The notes beneath the pieces are model-generated. The model saw only the letters and a program-made list of their open reading frames with translations. It did not search any database and had not been told where the DNA came from. A program made the position numbers and the translations under genes. 38,766 nucleotides of DNA from Luminiphilus sp. (GTDB taxonomy: Bacteria; Pseudomonadota; Gammaproteobacteria; Pseudomonadales; Halieaceae), in the NCBI GenBank assembly GCA_016778045.1, contig JADHQG010000011.1:1-38766 (forward strand), given 5' to 3'. Of the stretch, positions 9,945 through 16,718 are shown in pieces. Position 1 is the first letter of the stretch, and every line of letters starts with the position of its first letter.

Positions 9945-10066
9945 GAGCCGAGGTTGTGCCTGCGGCTCTGTGACTCTTTGCTGCCATGCTGGCAGTTCCG
10001 ATCTGCCACAGGTACTCTATCCGGCCGGTCGGCGCTTCGGCGTGCTCAGCATCCGTTCGATCCGAC

Positions 10067-11470
10067 ATGACTTGCAATACAAAAGGCACTACCTTGGAGT
10101 CGGTTAAATCCCAAGATCCGGACATCTCTCGGATCCGCATGCAGCCACAATCCGTCGAGGCCGAGCGCTCGGTGATCGGCGGTATCTTGCTGGCGCCTGA
10201 GAGCTGGGATGCCATTGCAGAACTGGTCGATGCCGGTGATTTTTATCGGCCCGAGCACCGGGCCATCTTCCGCCAAATCGCCACTTTGGTTGACCGCAAC
10301 GAGCCAATTGATGTCATTACGGTCGCGGATCGACTGCTGGCCACCGGTGAGTTGGATGCGGCTGGCGGGCATACCTACCTGGCCGACCTGGTGGAACAGA
10401 CGCCAACCGCGGCCAACGTCAGCGCTTACGCCCGAGCTGTGCGTGAGAGAGCGCTGTTAAGAAAGTTGATCAGTGCCGCACAGGATATTGCCACGGCAGG
10501 TTTCAATCCCGAGGGGCGCAGCGCTGAAGAGCTCGTAGACGAGGCCGAGCGCCTCATCATGACAGTCTCGGAGAGCGGTCCGAAAACCGGTGGCCCACGA
10601 GGTATGGGGCCGCTGCTGACGGGGGCCTTAGAGCGTATTGAGGAGCTCTACAACACTGGCGGCGACATCACCGGCTTGACGACAGGGTTTATCGATCTCG
10701 ACAAGCGCACATCAGGTTTGCAGCCCTCTGATTTGGTGATTGTGGCGGGCCGGCCCTCAATGGGTAAAACCAGCTTTGCCATGAATTTGGTTGAAAACGC
10801 CGCCGCCCATACTAATAAACCCATTGTTGTGTTCTCGATGGAGATGCCGGCGGAACAATTGGTTGTGCGGATGATGTCGTCGCTGGGCAAGATTGATCAG
10901 TCTCGGTTGCGCAACGGCAAACTCCAGCAGGACGACTGGCCCAAGCTCTCTGCCGCCATGGCGAAGCTCAAAGACACGTCGATTTTCATCGACGACACGC
11001 CGGCGCTCACACCCACTGAAGTGCGCGCACGTGCGCGGCGGTTGTCACGAGAGCACGGCGATCTCGCCATGATCTTGGTGGATTATCTGCAACTGATGCG
11101 TGTCGCGGGTGCCGCTGAGGGCCGCACCGCCGAAATTTCAGAAATCTCACGTAACCTGAAGGCGATAGCCAAGGAGTTCCGCTGTCCCGTGGTGGCGCTC
11201 TCCCAGTTGAATCGGGCTTTGGAGCAACGCCCTAACAAACGCCCCGTGAACTCAGATTTGCGTGAATCCGGCGCCATCGAGCAGGACGCGGACGTGGTGA
11301 TGTTCATTTACCGCGACGAGGTGTATCACGAGGACTCTCCCGACAAGGGTGTGGCCGAGATCATTATTGGCAAGCAGCGCAACGGCCCCATTGGGACCTG
11401 TCGCCTGGCGTTCCAGGGCGAATTCACGCGCTTTGAAAATCTGGCTCGAGACGACTATGCCGGTTACTGA
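10067..11470 (+). CDS. dnaB: Replicative DNA helicase DnaB
   Basis: 'PQSVEAERSVIGGILL', Walker A 'VAGRPSMGKTSFAMNLVENAA', 'LVDYLQLMRV', 'SDLRESGAIEQDADVVMFIYRDE'; exact start uncertain (ORF opens at 9986). Confidence 0.95.
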   Translation: MTCNTKGTTLESVKSQDPDISRIRMQPQSVEAERSVIGGILLAPESWDAIAELVDAGDFYRPEHRAIFRQIATLVDRNEPIDVITVADRLLATGELDAAGGHTYLADLVEQTPTAANVSAYARAVRERALLRKLISAAQDIATAGFNPEGRSAEELVDEAERLIMTVSESGPKTGGPRGMGPLLTGALERIEELYNTGGDITGLTTGFIDLDKRTSGLQPSDLVIVAGRPSMGKTSFAMNLVENAAAHTNKPIVVFSMEMPAEQLVVRMMSSLGKIDQSRLRNGKLQQDDWPKLSAAMAKLKDTSIFIDDTPALTPTEVRARARRLSREHGDLAMILVDYLQLMRVAGAAEGRTAEISEISRNLKAIAKEFRCPVVALSQLNRALEQRPNKRPVNSDLRESGAIEQDADVVMFIYRDEVYHEDSPDKGVAEIIIGKQRNGPIGTCRLAFQGEFTRFENLARDDYAGY

Positions 11471-11515: not shown

Positions 11516-11869
11516 ATGAATCAGATGTCATCTCCCATTGATTTCGCCGCTTTACTCGAGATGCTGGGTGGCGATCCGCAGATCGTCGCCTCACTGCTCT
11601 CCAAATTTGTGGATGAATTAACCGCGGATCTGTCAGCCAGTGCGCAGGCGAGTGCTGATCAAGACGCCGAGGCGCTGCGGCAGATCGCGCATCGCATCAA
11701 GGGCACCAGCGCCAATTTGCATGCTTTGATGCTGTCAGCTGCCGCGCGCGAGCTGGAGCAGGCTTGCACCGAGGCAGATGCCTCGCTGATGACCATCAAG
11801 CAGCAAGTGATGGCTGATCAGGCGCGTTTCGTGCAAGGGGCGATCGAAAGCTGGAGCGCCGATAACTGA
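11516..11869 (+). CDS. Stand-alone Hpt (histidine phosphotransfer) domain protein
   Basis: H-box 'LRQIAHRIKGTSANLHALMLSAAARELEQAC'. Confidence 0.8.
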   Translation: MNQMSSPIDFAALLEMLGGDPQIVASLLSKFVDELTADLSASAQASADQDAEALRQIAHRIKGTSANLHALMLSAAARELEQACTEADASLMTIKQQVMADQARFVQGAIESWSADN

Positions 11870-11894: not shown

Positions 11895-12572
11895 TCAAAG
11901 ACCGATTTCTTTCCGTAACCTCGCCAAATGGGTGACTTGCTCTTCTGTGCTGGGTGCGTCTTCCTGCGGTGCAGACAGCGCTACCCGCTCCGGGCCCTCC
12001 AGGATTTCGCCGCGCGCCGCGCGACTGACCCATCGCTCGTAGTGTTCCCGATAGACCGGCCAGGTCTTGGACTCGGGTTCTGTAGCCAGAAAGAACCAAT
12101 CGCTGTCACGGCCTGCGAGATACACGGCCGCATGGCCCCAAGGCGCTTCCGTTTTGGGCGAGGGGGCTAGGCACGCCTCTTTGTAGGCGTCGTAGGGTGA
12201 GGGCAGTCCAAGGTCGCTCAGAGAGTGCCGGCACGCTTCGATCATCCGGTTCAGGGTGGGCAGGTAATCGCTATGTTCAATGGCGTGCTGTGCTGCGCGG
12301 AGGATGACCGCGCTTGGATAGGCTTCGAGTGCCTCCAGCCACAGGCGTTTGACCTGCTTCACCTGCTCGGCGTCTGACCAGGCCGCATAGTACTGGTTGT
12401 GGTAGTTGAGACGAAACAGCGCAAAGACCTGATTCAGGGCCTCGACCAATTGCGAGTCGGGCGGTTCTCGTGCTTCAGTTGGCCCAGCTGGTGTCGGTGA
12501 GGTCGTCGCTGAGACTTCGGTCCTTTGAGCGATGTCCTGCGCCAATGCTGCCGCGTCCTGTTTGTCCGCCAT
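11895..12572 (-). CDS. Lambda replication protein P-like protein (candidate helicase loader)
   Basis: Layout resembles lambda P: 'LNQVFALFRLNYHNQYYAAWSDAEQVKQVKRLWLEAL', 'LPTLNRMIEACR', 'YDAYKEAC', 'WGHAAVYLAG', 'WPVYREHYERWVSRAARGEIL', 'LARLRKEIGL'; likely ATG (MADKQ) at 12572 preceded by GGAG; overlaps the 3' end of the upstream gene. Confidence 0.7.
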   Translation of the reverse strand: MADKQDAAALAQDIAQRTEVSATTSPTPAGPTEAREPPDSQLVEALNQVFALFRLNYHNQYYAAWSDAEQVKQVKRLWLEALEAYPSAVILRAAQHAIEHSDYLPTLNRMIEACRHSLSDLGLPSPYDAYKEACLAPSPKTEAPWGHAAVYLAGRDSDWFFLATEPESKTWPVYREHYERWVSRAARGEILEGPERVALSAPQEDAPSTEEQVTHLARLRKEIGL

Positions 12573-13584
12573 CCTGATCTCCATACCCTGCTGCCCGGCA
12601 CTGCCGCTTGACGTGCTGCAGGAATTTGCTATTCCACGAGGTATGCACCTCGTTGCTGTCGACCCAGTACATCACAAACTCGGGCAGGAGCGCGCGGGCG
12701 TCCTGCTCGGGGATGCCGGCCAGACTCAGCGTTTCATAAACTGACGTGTCGGGCTCCCAGTTCCGGGGTATGCGTCTAGGTTCGGTGCTGTGGTGCATCT
12801 GGCTCGTGTGTTTAAGCCACCGCCTGCGCACATGCTCCACAAAACGGGTGTTCACCTCTTTTGGCGGGCCGCCGCGCTCGCTCCAGTACAGGATGAATTC
12901 GGCCCTGACAGATTCGGCAAACACGATGTCGATGTCGGCCTGGGCCAAAATATCGAGAGCGTCCTGACTGGGCACCCAGTCGCGACCAAAGGGCGAGGGC
13001 GGTGTGATTTCAAATGTGTTTGCGAGCCGCCGGTTATCTTGCTGTTGGGCATCGCGCCAGCGCGCCAGCACGTGTTGCCGAAACTGGGTATCAATTTCCT
13101 TTCCGCTCGCGGGGAGAAACTGCGCTCGGACTTGGTCGATAAAGCCCTTTGGAATGCCATGATTGAGCACCAATAGTTCTTCTAGCGCCGGGCTGAGCTG
13201 CCACCCTTGAGCGAGCCCATCGTAGCCTTCAGGCGTTGGGTTAGCGGTGGTGTTTGACCCCGAGCGGTTTGGGCTTTCGCTGCGGCTGTGATGTTCGCTC
13301 TCGATCGCGGTACCACTCAGGATAACGGTATCAGCGTTCTGACTCGGCAGCTTGTGGAGGATGCCCAGCGCCACTAATTTATCGATCAGCTGCAGAATAT
13401 AGTCGATTGACCAGAAAGACAGCGCGCGTTGTAGCGCCTGCACCGATAGGGTGGTCCAGCCGTCTCGATCATCCAGTTGTGCGCCAATTTCCTGCAAGAG
13501 AACGGCCTCTTCCAAGCCGATGATTTCAGCCAGCTCGGGGGAGAAGGTCAGTTGTCGATCAGGAATGAGCGGCGCGGGTGGCAT
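12475..13584 (-). CDS. DnaT-like ssDNA-binding domain protein with three tandem DnaT-type domains and a winged-helix-like N-terminus
   Basis: C-terminal repeat units 'NWEPDTSVYETLSLAGIPEQDARALLPEFVMYWVDSNEVHTSWNSKFLQHVKRQ', 'DWVPSQDALDILAQADID...VRAEFILYWSERGGPPKEVNTRFVEHVRRRW', 'GWQLSPALEELLVLNHGIPKGFIDQVRAQFLPASGKEIDTQFRQHVLARW'; N-terminal 'LTFSPELAEIIGLEEAVLLQEIG'; likely ATG at 13584. Confidence 0.78.
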   Translation of the reverse strand: MPPAPLIPDRQLTFSPELAEIIGLEEAVLLQEIGAQLDDRDGWTTLSVQALQRALSFWSIDYILQLIDKLVALGILHKLPSQNADTVILSGTAIESEHHSRSESPNRSGSNTTANPTPEGYDGLAQGWQLSPALEELLVLNHGIPKGFIDQVRAQFLPASGKEIDTQFRQHVLARWRDAQQQDNRRLANTFEITPPSPFGRDWVPSQDALDILAQADIDIVFAESVRAEFILYWSERGGPPKEVNTRFVEHVRRRWLKHTSQMHHSTEPRRIPRNWEPDTSVYETLSLAGIPEQDARALLPEFVMYWVDSNEVHTSWNSKFLQHVKRQCRAAGYGDQDGGQTGRGSIGAGHRSKDRSLSDDLTDTSWAN

Positions 13585-13673: not shown

Positions 13674-15050
13674 GTGGCAAAGGCAAAAACCGCATTTGTC
13701 TGTAACGACTGTGGAGCGGATTTCCCGAAGTGGCAGGGTCAGTGCGGTGAATGCAACGCCTGGAACACCTTGTCTGAAATTCGCTTGAGCGCGCCCGCCG
13801 CCAAGAACAGCTCCGGGCGCTCGGCAGGCCGAACGGGTTTTGCCGGTAGTGTCGCAGCGGTGCAGCGGCTCGAGGACGTTGCGGTGGTGGATATGCCGCG
13901 CTTCAGTTCGGGTTTCGAGGAGTTCGATCGGGTACTGGGTGGTGGTTTTGTGCCAGGTTCCAGCATATTGATTGGCGGTCATCCCGGTGCAGGCAAGAGC
14001 ACGCTGCTATTACAGACTTTGTGTCGCCTTGCCTCATACCATACCGCGCTCTATGTTACGGGCGAGGAGTCGCCTGAGCAGATTGCGCTGCGTGCCAGTC
14101 GCCTGAGTCTGCCAACTGATCAACTGCAGATCATGGCCGAGACCGACGTCGATAATATTCTAGCGACGGCTGAGTCGCTGAAACCCAAAGTGCTGGTAGT
14201 GGATTCGATTCAGGTACTGCACAGCGAAACCCTCACGTCGGCGCCCGGCAGCGTTTCGCAGGTGCGCGACTGTGCGGCGCAGCTGACGCGCTACGCAAAG
14301 CAAACGGGGACGGTATTGATTCTGGTCGGCCACGTCACCAAAGACGGCAGCCTGGCGGGTCCGAAGGTGCTTGAGCACATGATCGATTGTTCGATTTTGA
14401 TCGAGGGTGACCATGATTCCCGCTACCGAACCCTGCGCGGGCAGAAGAACCGGTTTGGTGCGGTCAACGAGCTGGGTATTTTCGCCATGACCGATGCGGG
14501 CATGCGCGAGGTCAGTAATCCCTCTGCCATTTTCTTGGACCGCTCCGAGCACACTGCACCGGGGACCACCGTTGTGGTCGTTTGGGAGGGAACGCGACCG
14601 TTGTTGGTCGAGATACAGGCGCTCGTTGACGACAGTTCGCTCGGCAACCCCCGGCGCGTGACCGTAGGGTTTGAACAAAATCGGCTCGCGATGTTGCTGG
14701 CCGTGCTGCATCGGCACGGTGGCGTTCAGGTGGGCGATCAGGATGTTTTTGCCAACGTCGTGGGGGGTGTCCGGGTCATGGAGACCTCTGCCGATTTGGC
14801 GCTGCTGTTGGCAGTGGTTTCAAGCCTCCGCGACCGGTCGCTACCCCGTGATTGGGTGGTATTCGGCGAAGTGGGGTTGTCCGGAGAAATTCGGCCGGTG
14901 GCCAGCGGTCAGGAGCGGCTGGCCGAAGCGGCGAAGCACGGCTTCAAAGTGGCCATTGTGCCCAAGGCCAACGCGCCGAAAAAAGCCATCGCAGGCCTGA
15001 AGGTCATCGCTGTTTCAAGGCTCTCCGAAGCCCTCGAGGCCTGTCAGTGA
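13674..15050 (+). CDS. radA: DNA repair protein RadA
   Basis: N-terminal zinc finger 'FVCNDCGADFPKWQGQCGECNAWNT', Walker A 'IGGHPGAGKSTLLLQ', 'KNRFGAVNELGIF'. Confidence 0.96.
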   Translation: MAKAKTAFVCNDCGADFPKWQGQCGECNAWNTLSEIRLSAPAAKNSSGRSAGRTGFAGSVAAVQRLEDVAVVDMPRFSSGFEEFDRVLGGGFVPGSSILIGGHPGAGKSTLLLQTLCRLASYHTALYVTGEESPEQIALRASRLSLPTDQLQIMAETDVDNILATAESLKPKVLVVDSIQVLHSETLTSAPGSVSQVRDCAAQLTRYAKQTGTVLILVGHVTKDGSLAGPKVLEHMIDCSILIEGDHDSRYRTLRGQKNRFGAVNELGIFAMTDAGMREVSNPSAIFLDRSEHTAPGTTVVVVWEGTRPLLVEIQALVDDSSLGNPRRVTVGFEQNRLAMLLAVLHRHGGVQVGDQDVFANVVGGVRVMETSADLALLLAVVSSLRDRSLPRDWVVFGEVGLSGEIRPVASGQERLAEAAKHGFKVAIVPKANAPKKAIAGLKVIAVSRLSEALEACQ

Positions 15051-15053
15051 GCC

Positions 15054-16718
15054 TTACTTAAGTTTGCGATGCTTAACGCGGCTCGGCACGGCAGCGTCTG
15101 CACCGACACGCTGCCGGTAGTCTTCTTCATACTCTGAGTAGTTGCCCTCGTGAAAGACGACGCCGCCGTCGTTTTCATAGGCCAGAATGTGGGTCGCGAT
15201 ACGATCCAGAAACCACCTGTCGTGAGAGATGACCAACGCTGATCCCGGGAATGCCAGTAGCGCTTCCTCCAGCGCACGCAGCGTTTCCACGTCCAAGTCA
15301 TTGGTGGGCTCATCCAGCAACAGCACATTAGCACCTTGTTTGAGCAGCTTCGCAAGATGTAGCCGGTTGCGCTCACCTCACGATAAATCCTTCACGAACT
15401 TCTGCTGATCAGAGCCTTTGAAATTAAAACGCCCCACATAGGATCGAGAGGGCACTTCGTAGTTTCCGATACGGATGATGTCGAGCCCGTCGGAGACTTC
15501 CTCCCAAACGGTTTTGCTGCCGTCGAGGTCGTCGCGGGATTGGTCTACGTAGCCCAGCTCGACGGTGTCACCTACAGTGACCTCGCCACCATCCGGTGTT
15601 TCGAGGCCCATTAAAATTCGGAACAAGGTCGATTTGCCCATACCGTTGGCACCGATGATGCCGACGATACTCCCCTTGGGTACAACAAAGCTGACGTCGT
15701 CAAAAAGCAGCCTATCGCCAAAGGTTTTTCGGAGGCCGCTGACTTCGACGACCTTGTCGCCCAGCCGGGCGCCCGGGGGGATATAGATCTCGTTGGTTTC
15801 GTTGCGGCTCTGAAACTCTTGCGAGTTGAGCTCTTCGAATCGCTGCAGTCGCGCTTTGTTCTTGGCCTGCCTGCCCTTCGGGTTGGAGCGAACCCACTCG
15901 AGCTCAGCCTTGATGGCTTTCTGATGCGAGGCCTCCTGGCGTTGCTCCTGCTCGATGCGCTTTTCTTTGGCCTCCAACCAGTTGGAGTAGTTGCCTTCGT
16001 ACGGGATGCCCCGGCCGCGATCCAGCTCAAGAATCCAGCCCGCCGCATTGTCGAGAAAGTAGCGGTCGTGGGTAATGGCCACCACAGTACCGGGGAAGTC
16101 CTCCAAAAAGTGCTCAAGCCAGGCCACCGATTCGGCGTCCAAGTGGTTGGTGGGCTCATCGAGTAACAGCATGTCGGGCTCAGAGAGGAGCAGCCGCGCC
16201 AAAGCGACCCGGCGGCGCTCACCCCCAGAGAGGGTGTCTACATGGACGTCCCACGGCGGCAATCGCAGGGCGTTGGCGGCAATGTCGAGTCGCGTGTCGA
16301 GGTTATGCGCATCCTTGGCTTGAATGATGTCCTCGAGCCGCGCCTGTTCCCTCGCCAGTGCGTCGAAATCGGCATCAGGCTCCGCGTAGTCTGCGTAGAT
16401 TTTTTCAAGCCCAGCGAGGGCGTCGATGGCTTCCTGAACCCCTTCTTCAACATTACCCCGCACATCTTTGTCGCTATTGAGCTGCGGCTCCTGAGGCAGG
16501 TAACCAATCTTGATGCCGGGCTGGGGGCGCGCCTCACCTAGAATTTCGGTATCGATGCCCGCCATGATTTTGAGCAGAGTAGACTTACCCGCGCCGTTCA
16601 ATCCGAGCACACCAATCTTGGCGCCTGGGAAAAAAGACAGCGAGATATCTTTCAGAATTTCTTTTTTCGGCGGGACGATCTTCCCGACGCGGTTCATGGT
16701 GTAAACGTATTGCGCCAC
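15054..16718 (-). pseudogene. ettA: Energy-dependent translational throttle protein EttA (ABC-F) interrupted by an in-frame TGA at 15378..15380
   Basis: N-terminal ORF 15378..16718 ends '...VGRFNFKGSDQQKFVKDLS*'; the same frame continues '[41 protein letters not shown]...RKLK' to 15054; stop lies inside the LSGGE signature of the second ABC domain. Confidence 0.88.

Follow-up and report, generated by a model that had tools for sequence, protein, structure and literature searches.

A chromosomal dopC-dopE gene pair of Luminiphilus as a probable domesticated helicase-loading module of phage O-P type

Described loaders and the dopC-dopE locus

The closest described relatives of the locus treated here are DopC and DopE, the same chromosomal O/P-derived pair, which Brezellec et al. 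are said to have named in 2017 as a putative third, lambda-derived type of helicase matchmaker for organisms without dciA and dnaC/I; the proposal was reportedly a genomic prediction. In E. coli, dnaT and dnaC form an operon in which the adaptor gene lies beside the loader gene. The present locus comes from the Halieaceae, a family that we take to belong to the Cellvibrionales. In the 2016 paper on DciA, Brezellec et al. stated that the Cellvibrionales hold only organisms without dna[CI] and dciA and asked whether another operator had been acquired (PMC5109545). How bacteria with neither DciA nor DnaC/I load DnaB was an explicit open question in that year. Lambda P protomers bind the subunit interfaces of DnaB and crack the ring (PMC6391071), and the linker/docking-helix module is a common target of loaders (PMC9912922). 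In a paper of 2026, DopE is listed among the loader families alongside DciA. In the searched literature, no experiment on DopC-DopE was found. Because of the 2016 statement on the Cellvibrionales and the reported 2017 naming, neither the kind of system nor its occurrence in this taxon is new. What may be new is the three-DnaT architecture of DopC and its variation, the tail motif described below, and the phage genes that have DnaT domains upstream of P.

The window, that is the whole stretch of 38,766 nucleotides that was analysed, is a fragment of a Luminiphilus (Halieaceae) genome, and in the genome collection it stands closest to Luminiphilus and further members of the Halieaceae. The preliminary description had placed two overlapping minus-strand genes between a dnaB-Hpt block and radA, and the coordinates proved exact (Table 1). 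These genes, dopE and dopC, form an adjacent O-like/P-like chromosomal pair, which is what defines DopC-DopE. For dopC, the start at 13584 is favoured over a longer open reading frame reaching 13695, and alignments with relatives begin at the first residue of the former; for dopE, the ATG at 12572 is common to all close relatives and that at 12584 is found in only some. The genes called around the pair are rnr, rlmB, rpsF, rplI, dnaB, the Hpt-domain gene, radA, ettA, rimK and glyA. All are housekeeping genes, and the earlier observation that no phage integrase or structural genes lie nearby was borne out among them.

Two minor features of the neighbourhood were recorded. The Hpt gene is limited to the closest Luminiphilus relatives of the window (L001-L020 and L022) and is absent from L023 onwards. 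In ettA (15044-16718, minus strand), the gene of the energy-dependent translational throttle ABC-F protein, an in-frame stop lies inside the second ABC signature (LS*GERNR), with the frame open on either side; either a mistake in the assembly or a true pseudogene could account for it.

Table 1. Positions of the dopC-dopE pair, its parts and its neighbours in the window
Feature	Positions	Strand	Remarks
dnaB, replicative helicase	9986..11470	+	DopE is predicted to act on it; gene start probably lies further in
Hpt-domain gene, small, stand-alone	11516-11869	+	between dnaB and dopE
dopE	11895..12572	-	225 aa, lambda P-type helicase loader by family and predicted fold; alternative ATG at 12584
dopC/dopE overlap	12475..12572	-	98 nt, out-of-frame
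dopC	12475..13584	-	369 aa, winged-helix and 3x DnaT-domain adaptor/initiator-like protein; conserved family A1
DopC conserved C-terminal tail motif SLSDDLTDTSWA	12481..12516	-	within the gene overlap; candidate DopE-docking peptide
DopC DnaT-type domain 3	12589..12774	-	76.3 bits
DopC DnaT-type domain 2	12796..12987	-	62.9 bits
DopC DnaT-type domain 1	13015..13215	-	about residues 124-190, boundaries approximate
DopC winged-helix domain, predicted	13312..13539	-	residues 16-91; AF2 secondary structure and pLDDT
radA/sms	13674..15050	+	transcribed divergently from dopC; synteny kept in relatives

Families, domains and predicted folds of DopE and DopC

By family and predicted fold, DopE is a lambda P-type helicase loader, as had been proposed for the distal gene of the pair. 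The protein scan matched it to Phage_lambda_P (PF06992) with 33.2 bits, above the curated cut-off of 26 (E 5.4e-8). Residues 18-228, almost the full length, matched PHROG_109, "P-like helicase loader" (E 2.4e-19). A six-frame PF06992 scan of the genome of the window missed dopE although the protein scan matches, and this miss therefore marks a limit of sensitivity. Lambda P aligned along the whole DopE profile in a two-sequence hmmsearch (i-E 1.6e-7), and comparison of the two by hhalign gave a prob of 74 (E 2.9e-5). As single-sequence PDB searches with DopC or DopE gave no matches and an alignment search of the PDB with DopE gave only chance matches, comparison of folds was needed for DopE. 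Its AlphaFold model (pLDDT 80) returned lambda P chains of the DnaB-P complex 9oa1/9oa2 at Foldseek PDB ranks 1-5 (best E 7.9e-6), with TM-scores of only about 0.3-0.6, so that domain placement is poorly matched; the SPP1 loader G39P (1no1) was also among the matches, with a prob of 0.91 but an E of 2.0.

DopE thus resembles lambda P (PF06992; DnaB-P structures 9oa1/9oa2 and 6bbm) in its full-length profile match, its helical layout and its size (225 against 233 aa), and both proteins are translated after an O-like partner. It differs from lambda P in being chromosomal and vertically conserved, and identity in the profile alignment is only about 22%. The DciA and DnaC-DnaI loaders would do the same job as DopE with unrelated sequences.

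The Pfam protein scan matched DopC to the DnaT family (PF17948) in three stretches (143.4 bits, E 1.7e-42), and its AlphaFold model, built on a 35-sequence alignment, consists of a well-predicted winged-helix block, followed by a linker that is disordered, three helical modules of high confidence and a tail, again disordered, with a short conserved end. The winged-helix-like N-terminus and DnaT-type domains that had been read in the promoter-proximal product are thereby recovered, and the HMM checks proposed earlier, for Phage_lambda_P and the DnaT family, both gave matches. Foldseek searches with full-length DopC returned weak winged-helix matches only, including "4pt7 Structure of initiator" and the DnaD NTD, none of them with E<0.001, and similarity to the PDB entry of DnaT was weak (E 0.03).

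DopC has in common with E. coli DnaT the PF17948 domain and the position of the adaptor gene next to a loader gene. DnaT, however, has one DnaT domain and the AAA+ protein DnaC as partner, whereas DopC has three, an SWA tail and a P-type loader partner; by its three domains and its partner, DopC falls outside the E. coli-type DnaT orthologues. The architecture of DopC varies by lineage, with a winged helix and three DnaT domains, a winged helix and one DnaT domain, or a single DnaT domain in a protein of 143-152 aa. The short form was seen in some families of the order (L106-L110, L133-L135, L146), where the pair looks like DnaT next to P and strikingly parallels dnaT-dnaC of E. coli, although the loader differs.

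Conservation of the pair and distribution of DopE and DciA

The order rplI-dnaB-dopE-dopC-radA is preserved in most Halieaceae loci having enough sequence, and the survey of dnaB/radA synteny that had been suggested thus found the arrangement to recur across the family. The pair adjoins radA and usually dnaB too, which in some Halieaceae loci lies several kb further away. The start of dopE is found at a fixed offset within dopC, 85–112 nt ahead of the dopC stop in most relatives, and there is little or no overlap in three loci. Other families of the order also keep the two genes together, beside radA, near dnaB or dxs-ispA, or with none of the genes of the window close by. Both genes are under purifying selection, as judged from low dN/dS against near relatives where it could be computed, namely about 0.03 for dopE and 0.07-0.10 for dopC (0.24 for dopC against L. 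syltensis), with dS saturated.

The search for dciA that had been recommended found no match in any of 36 Halieaceae, comprising the genome of the window and 35 others that are at least 90% complete; in that run, DciA was detected in seven genomes of other families. As the genome of the window is only 68% complete, the absence of dciA rests on the relatives. Among 295 genomes surveyed across the order, 183 had DopE only, 87 had DciA only, three had both and 22 had neither, giving totals of 186 with DopE and 90 with DciA (Fisher p = 2e-49 for exclusion, a statistic that ignores phylogeny). DopE was accordingly present in 183 of the 205 genomes without a DciA match. All but one of the DopE-only genomes (182 of 183) also had a DopC match, and the single exception, G146, has a divergent DopC-like gene ahead of dopE. 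The three genomes with both loaders had no DopC match and weaker DopE scores, and their DopE-like genes are probably prophage genes. The Pfam DciA model is weak in this order, with some true-looking matches near 22-24 bits, and because of this and of the 22 genomes with neither loader, a very divergent DciA might conceivably be present in the order.

In a class-wide sample of 276 genomes, 227 had a DciA match and nine, including the window, a DopE match. Outside the genome of the window, DopE matches were therefore found in eight of 275 genomes; five of these had a DopC-like gene, and all five were without a DciA match. A DAHP synthase-type gene adjoins dopC in three of the five (L160 and L163 by Pfam, L161 by similarity of the gene start only). 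As to DnaC, matches to PF01695 in relatives fell mostly in DnaA-sized or large-AAA-sized frames; they were full-length in a few genomes, where they were IstB-like in appearance, and no convincing dnaC was recognised among them.

One genome, G147 (loci L109, L120, L124 and L126-L128), carries ten P-like genes, one of which has a chromosomal DopE score. The others score more weakly and are probably prophage genes, several with O-like or DnaT-bearing partners.

Proposed mechanism, alternatives and phage kin

From the family matches, the synteny among housekeeping genes in Halieaceae and the near-exclusion with DciA, we conclude that dopC-dopE is very probably a domesticated phage O-P-type replication module, serving as a general DnaB loader that has replaced DciA or DnaC. 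The preliminary description had already favoured a domesticated loader or restart module over a prophage, and the families, the synteny, the failure to find dciA and the lack of phage genes nearby speak in its favour. To judge from homology and fold, DopE would bind DnaB as lambda P does and hold the ring open. DopC would supply the bridge to DNA through the winged helix and the three DnaT-type domains, which would bind exposed single strands as well as DNA of the origin or fork. The disordered peptide at the C-terminus of DopC (L-x-D-T-S-W-A) may tether the DopE-DnaB complex. DopE would then depart, and DnaB would close on ssDNA. The absence of another detected loader suggests that the pair may act at oriC as well as at forks. 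The DnaT domains of DopC would tie chromosomal initiation to restart adaptors, and as cultured Halieaceae carry the pair in compact and conserved form, it is directly testable.

A role in restart only, in which DopC-DopE reloads DnaB at collapsed forks, as E. coli DnaT does together with PriA/PriB, and an unknown factor or DnaA alone loads it at oriC, appears unlikely to us. The DnaT domains do resemble the E. coli restart adaptor (PMC13377028) and the pair adjoins radA, a recombination/repair gene, but other families retain the pair without its linkage to radA, and the near-exclusion of DopE and DciA across the order would be unexpected for a restart-only factor. As no other loader was found in Halieaceae, the general loader is the more likely of the two.

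The C-terminal tail of DopC, SLSDDLTDTSWAN, offers a specific prediction as to how a phage-type loader is recruited, its L-x-D-T-S-W-A motif being a candidate docking peptide for DopE. The pattern D-x-[STDNEH]-W was present within the last 40 residues of all 32 chromosomal P/DopE partners examined, across differing domain architectures, and in eight of 19 phage or prophage partners compared with 62 of 1100 (5.6%) other ORFs of the same loci, counts that include related, non-independent sequences and a pattern picked after the sequences had been viewed. In a wider Halieaceae set the tail motif was found in 75 of 77, the other two reading NTGWAD. The contact of lambda O with P involves the C-terminal part of O. 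Lambda O ends in LTNTDWIYGVDL, and its LTNTDW stands against LTDTSW in DopC. O and DopC are both encoded just upstream of P or DopE; in the rest of the chain, however, no similarity between them was detectable, and the DnaT domains of DopC were not found in lambda O. A relationship of DopC to lambda O by sequence was accordingly rejected outside the tail (hhalign prob 0.2). The recurrence of the tail across the chromosomal lineages examined and some phages, with a near form in lambda O, is possibly new.

A conserved TPAG at the N-terminus of DopE was also considered as a DopE motif and rejected. In Halieaceae the tail motif of DopC falls in the gene overlap, and TPAG, which reads as the other-frame shadow of DTSWA, is for this reason most simply explained as such. 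TPAG moreover sits in a disordered, low-confidence stretch of the DopE model, and DopC keeps its motif in the non-overlapping relatives L064 and L080.

The tail also bears on whether the two proteins act together. If DopC were an independent ssDNA-binding or regulatory protein and the overlap mere operon compaction, the strong variation in the domain make-up of DopC would be accommodated, but DopC would hardly be expected to accompany DopE so constantly, whatever the position of the pair relative to dnaB and radA. Nor would the tail motif be expected to recur in otherwise differing partners, among them a phage partner without a DopC-profile match (on contig L150, containing SLTDCSWATGL) and, in near form, lambda O. 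We regard separate action as quite improbable.

A prophage remnant, or phage-derived exclusion or anti-phage genes with no part in host replication, is extremely improbable, since the clear homology to phage replication proteins and the toxicity of free P, which titrates DnaB (PMC4926192), are outweighed by the housekeeping neighbours, the place and overlap conserved across Halieaceae, the presence of DopE in most genomes of the order without a DciA match and the purifying selection on the pair.

The proposed general loader formed by dopC-dopE may have a wider setting. We suggest, tentatively and as something rather doubtful, that lambda O-P, chromosomal dopC-dopE and enterobacterial dnaT-dnaC are variants of one phage-derived cassette of a DNA-binding adaptor and a helicase loader with swappable parts, in which a C-terminal L-x-(D/N)-T-x-W plug of the adaptor recruits P-type loaders and DnaT is a stripped-down adaptor. 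The recurrence of the motif, together with phage and prophage DnaT-domain genes directly upstream of a P-type gene, supports this in part. If it holds, DopC would unite the restart role of DnaT and the origin role of lambda O in one protein, and the number of DnaT domains (1 to 3) would be tuned by lineage, possibly with more than one domestication.

Among phages, the P proteins of Pseudomonas phages are 27–28% identical to DopE, and an "O-like" gene immediately precedes the P gene in the one Pseudomonas phage whose region was examined. DopC as a whole had no match in the phage collection. A single DnaT domain (65 bits) is found on the viral contig L156 in the O-position gene directly ahead of a P-type gene, and on L148, a probable prophage, the O-position gene ahead of the P-type gene combines a DnaT domain (58 bits) with an HTH_36 winged helix. 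Of the viral proteins, the one nearest to the window DopE (38% identity) is encoded on L150 (IMGVR_UViG_3300003318_000003), judged from its gene content to be a Mu-like phage, where the partner has 154 aa; this phage possibly took its loader from a host. Several independent domestications of DopE were at first indicated by an AU test (p 1.6e-7), but the signal was lost once the host-like L150 was removed (p 0.30), and multiple domestications are therefore not claimed.

A final observation concerns L166:6371-7528 (G465), where, within one 385-aa ORF, two matches to the winged-helix part of DopC are followed by a match to the N-terminal half of P/DopE. The ORF may be a natural fusion of DopC and DopE that lacks DnaT domains, seen in one genome, with a frameshift artefact as the alternative. 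The other sampled genome of the same order, G325 (L165), has an unfused pair in which DopE is shortened to 169 aa.
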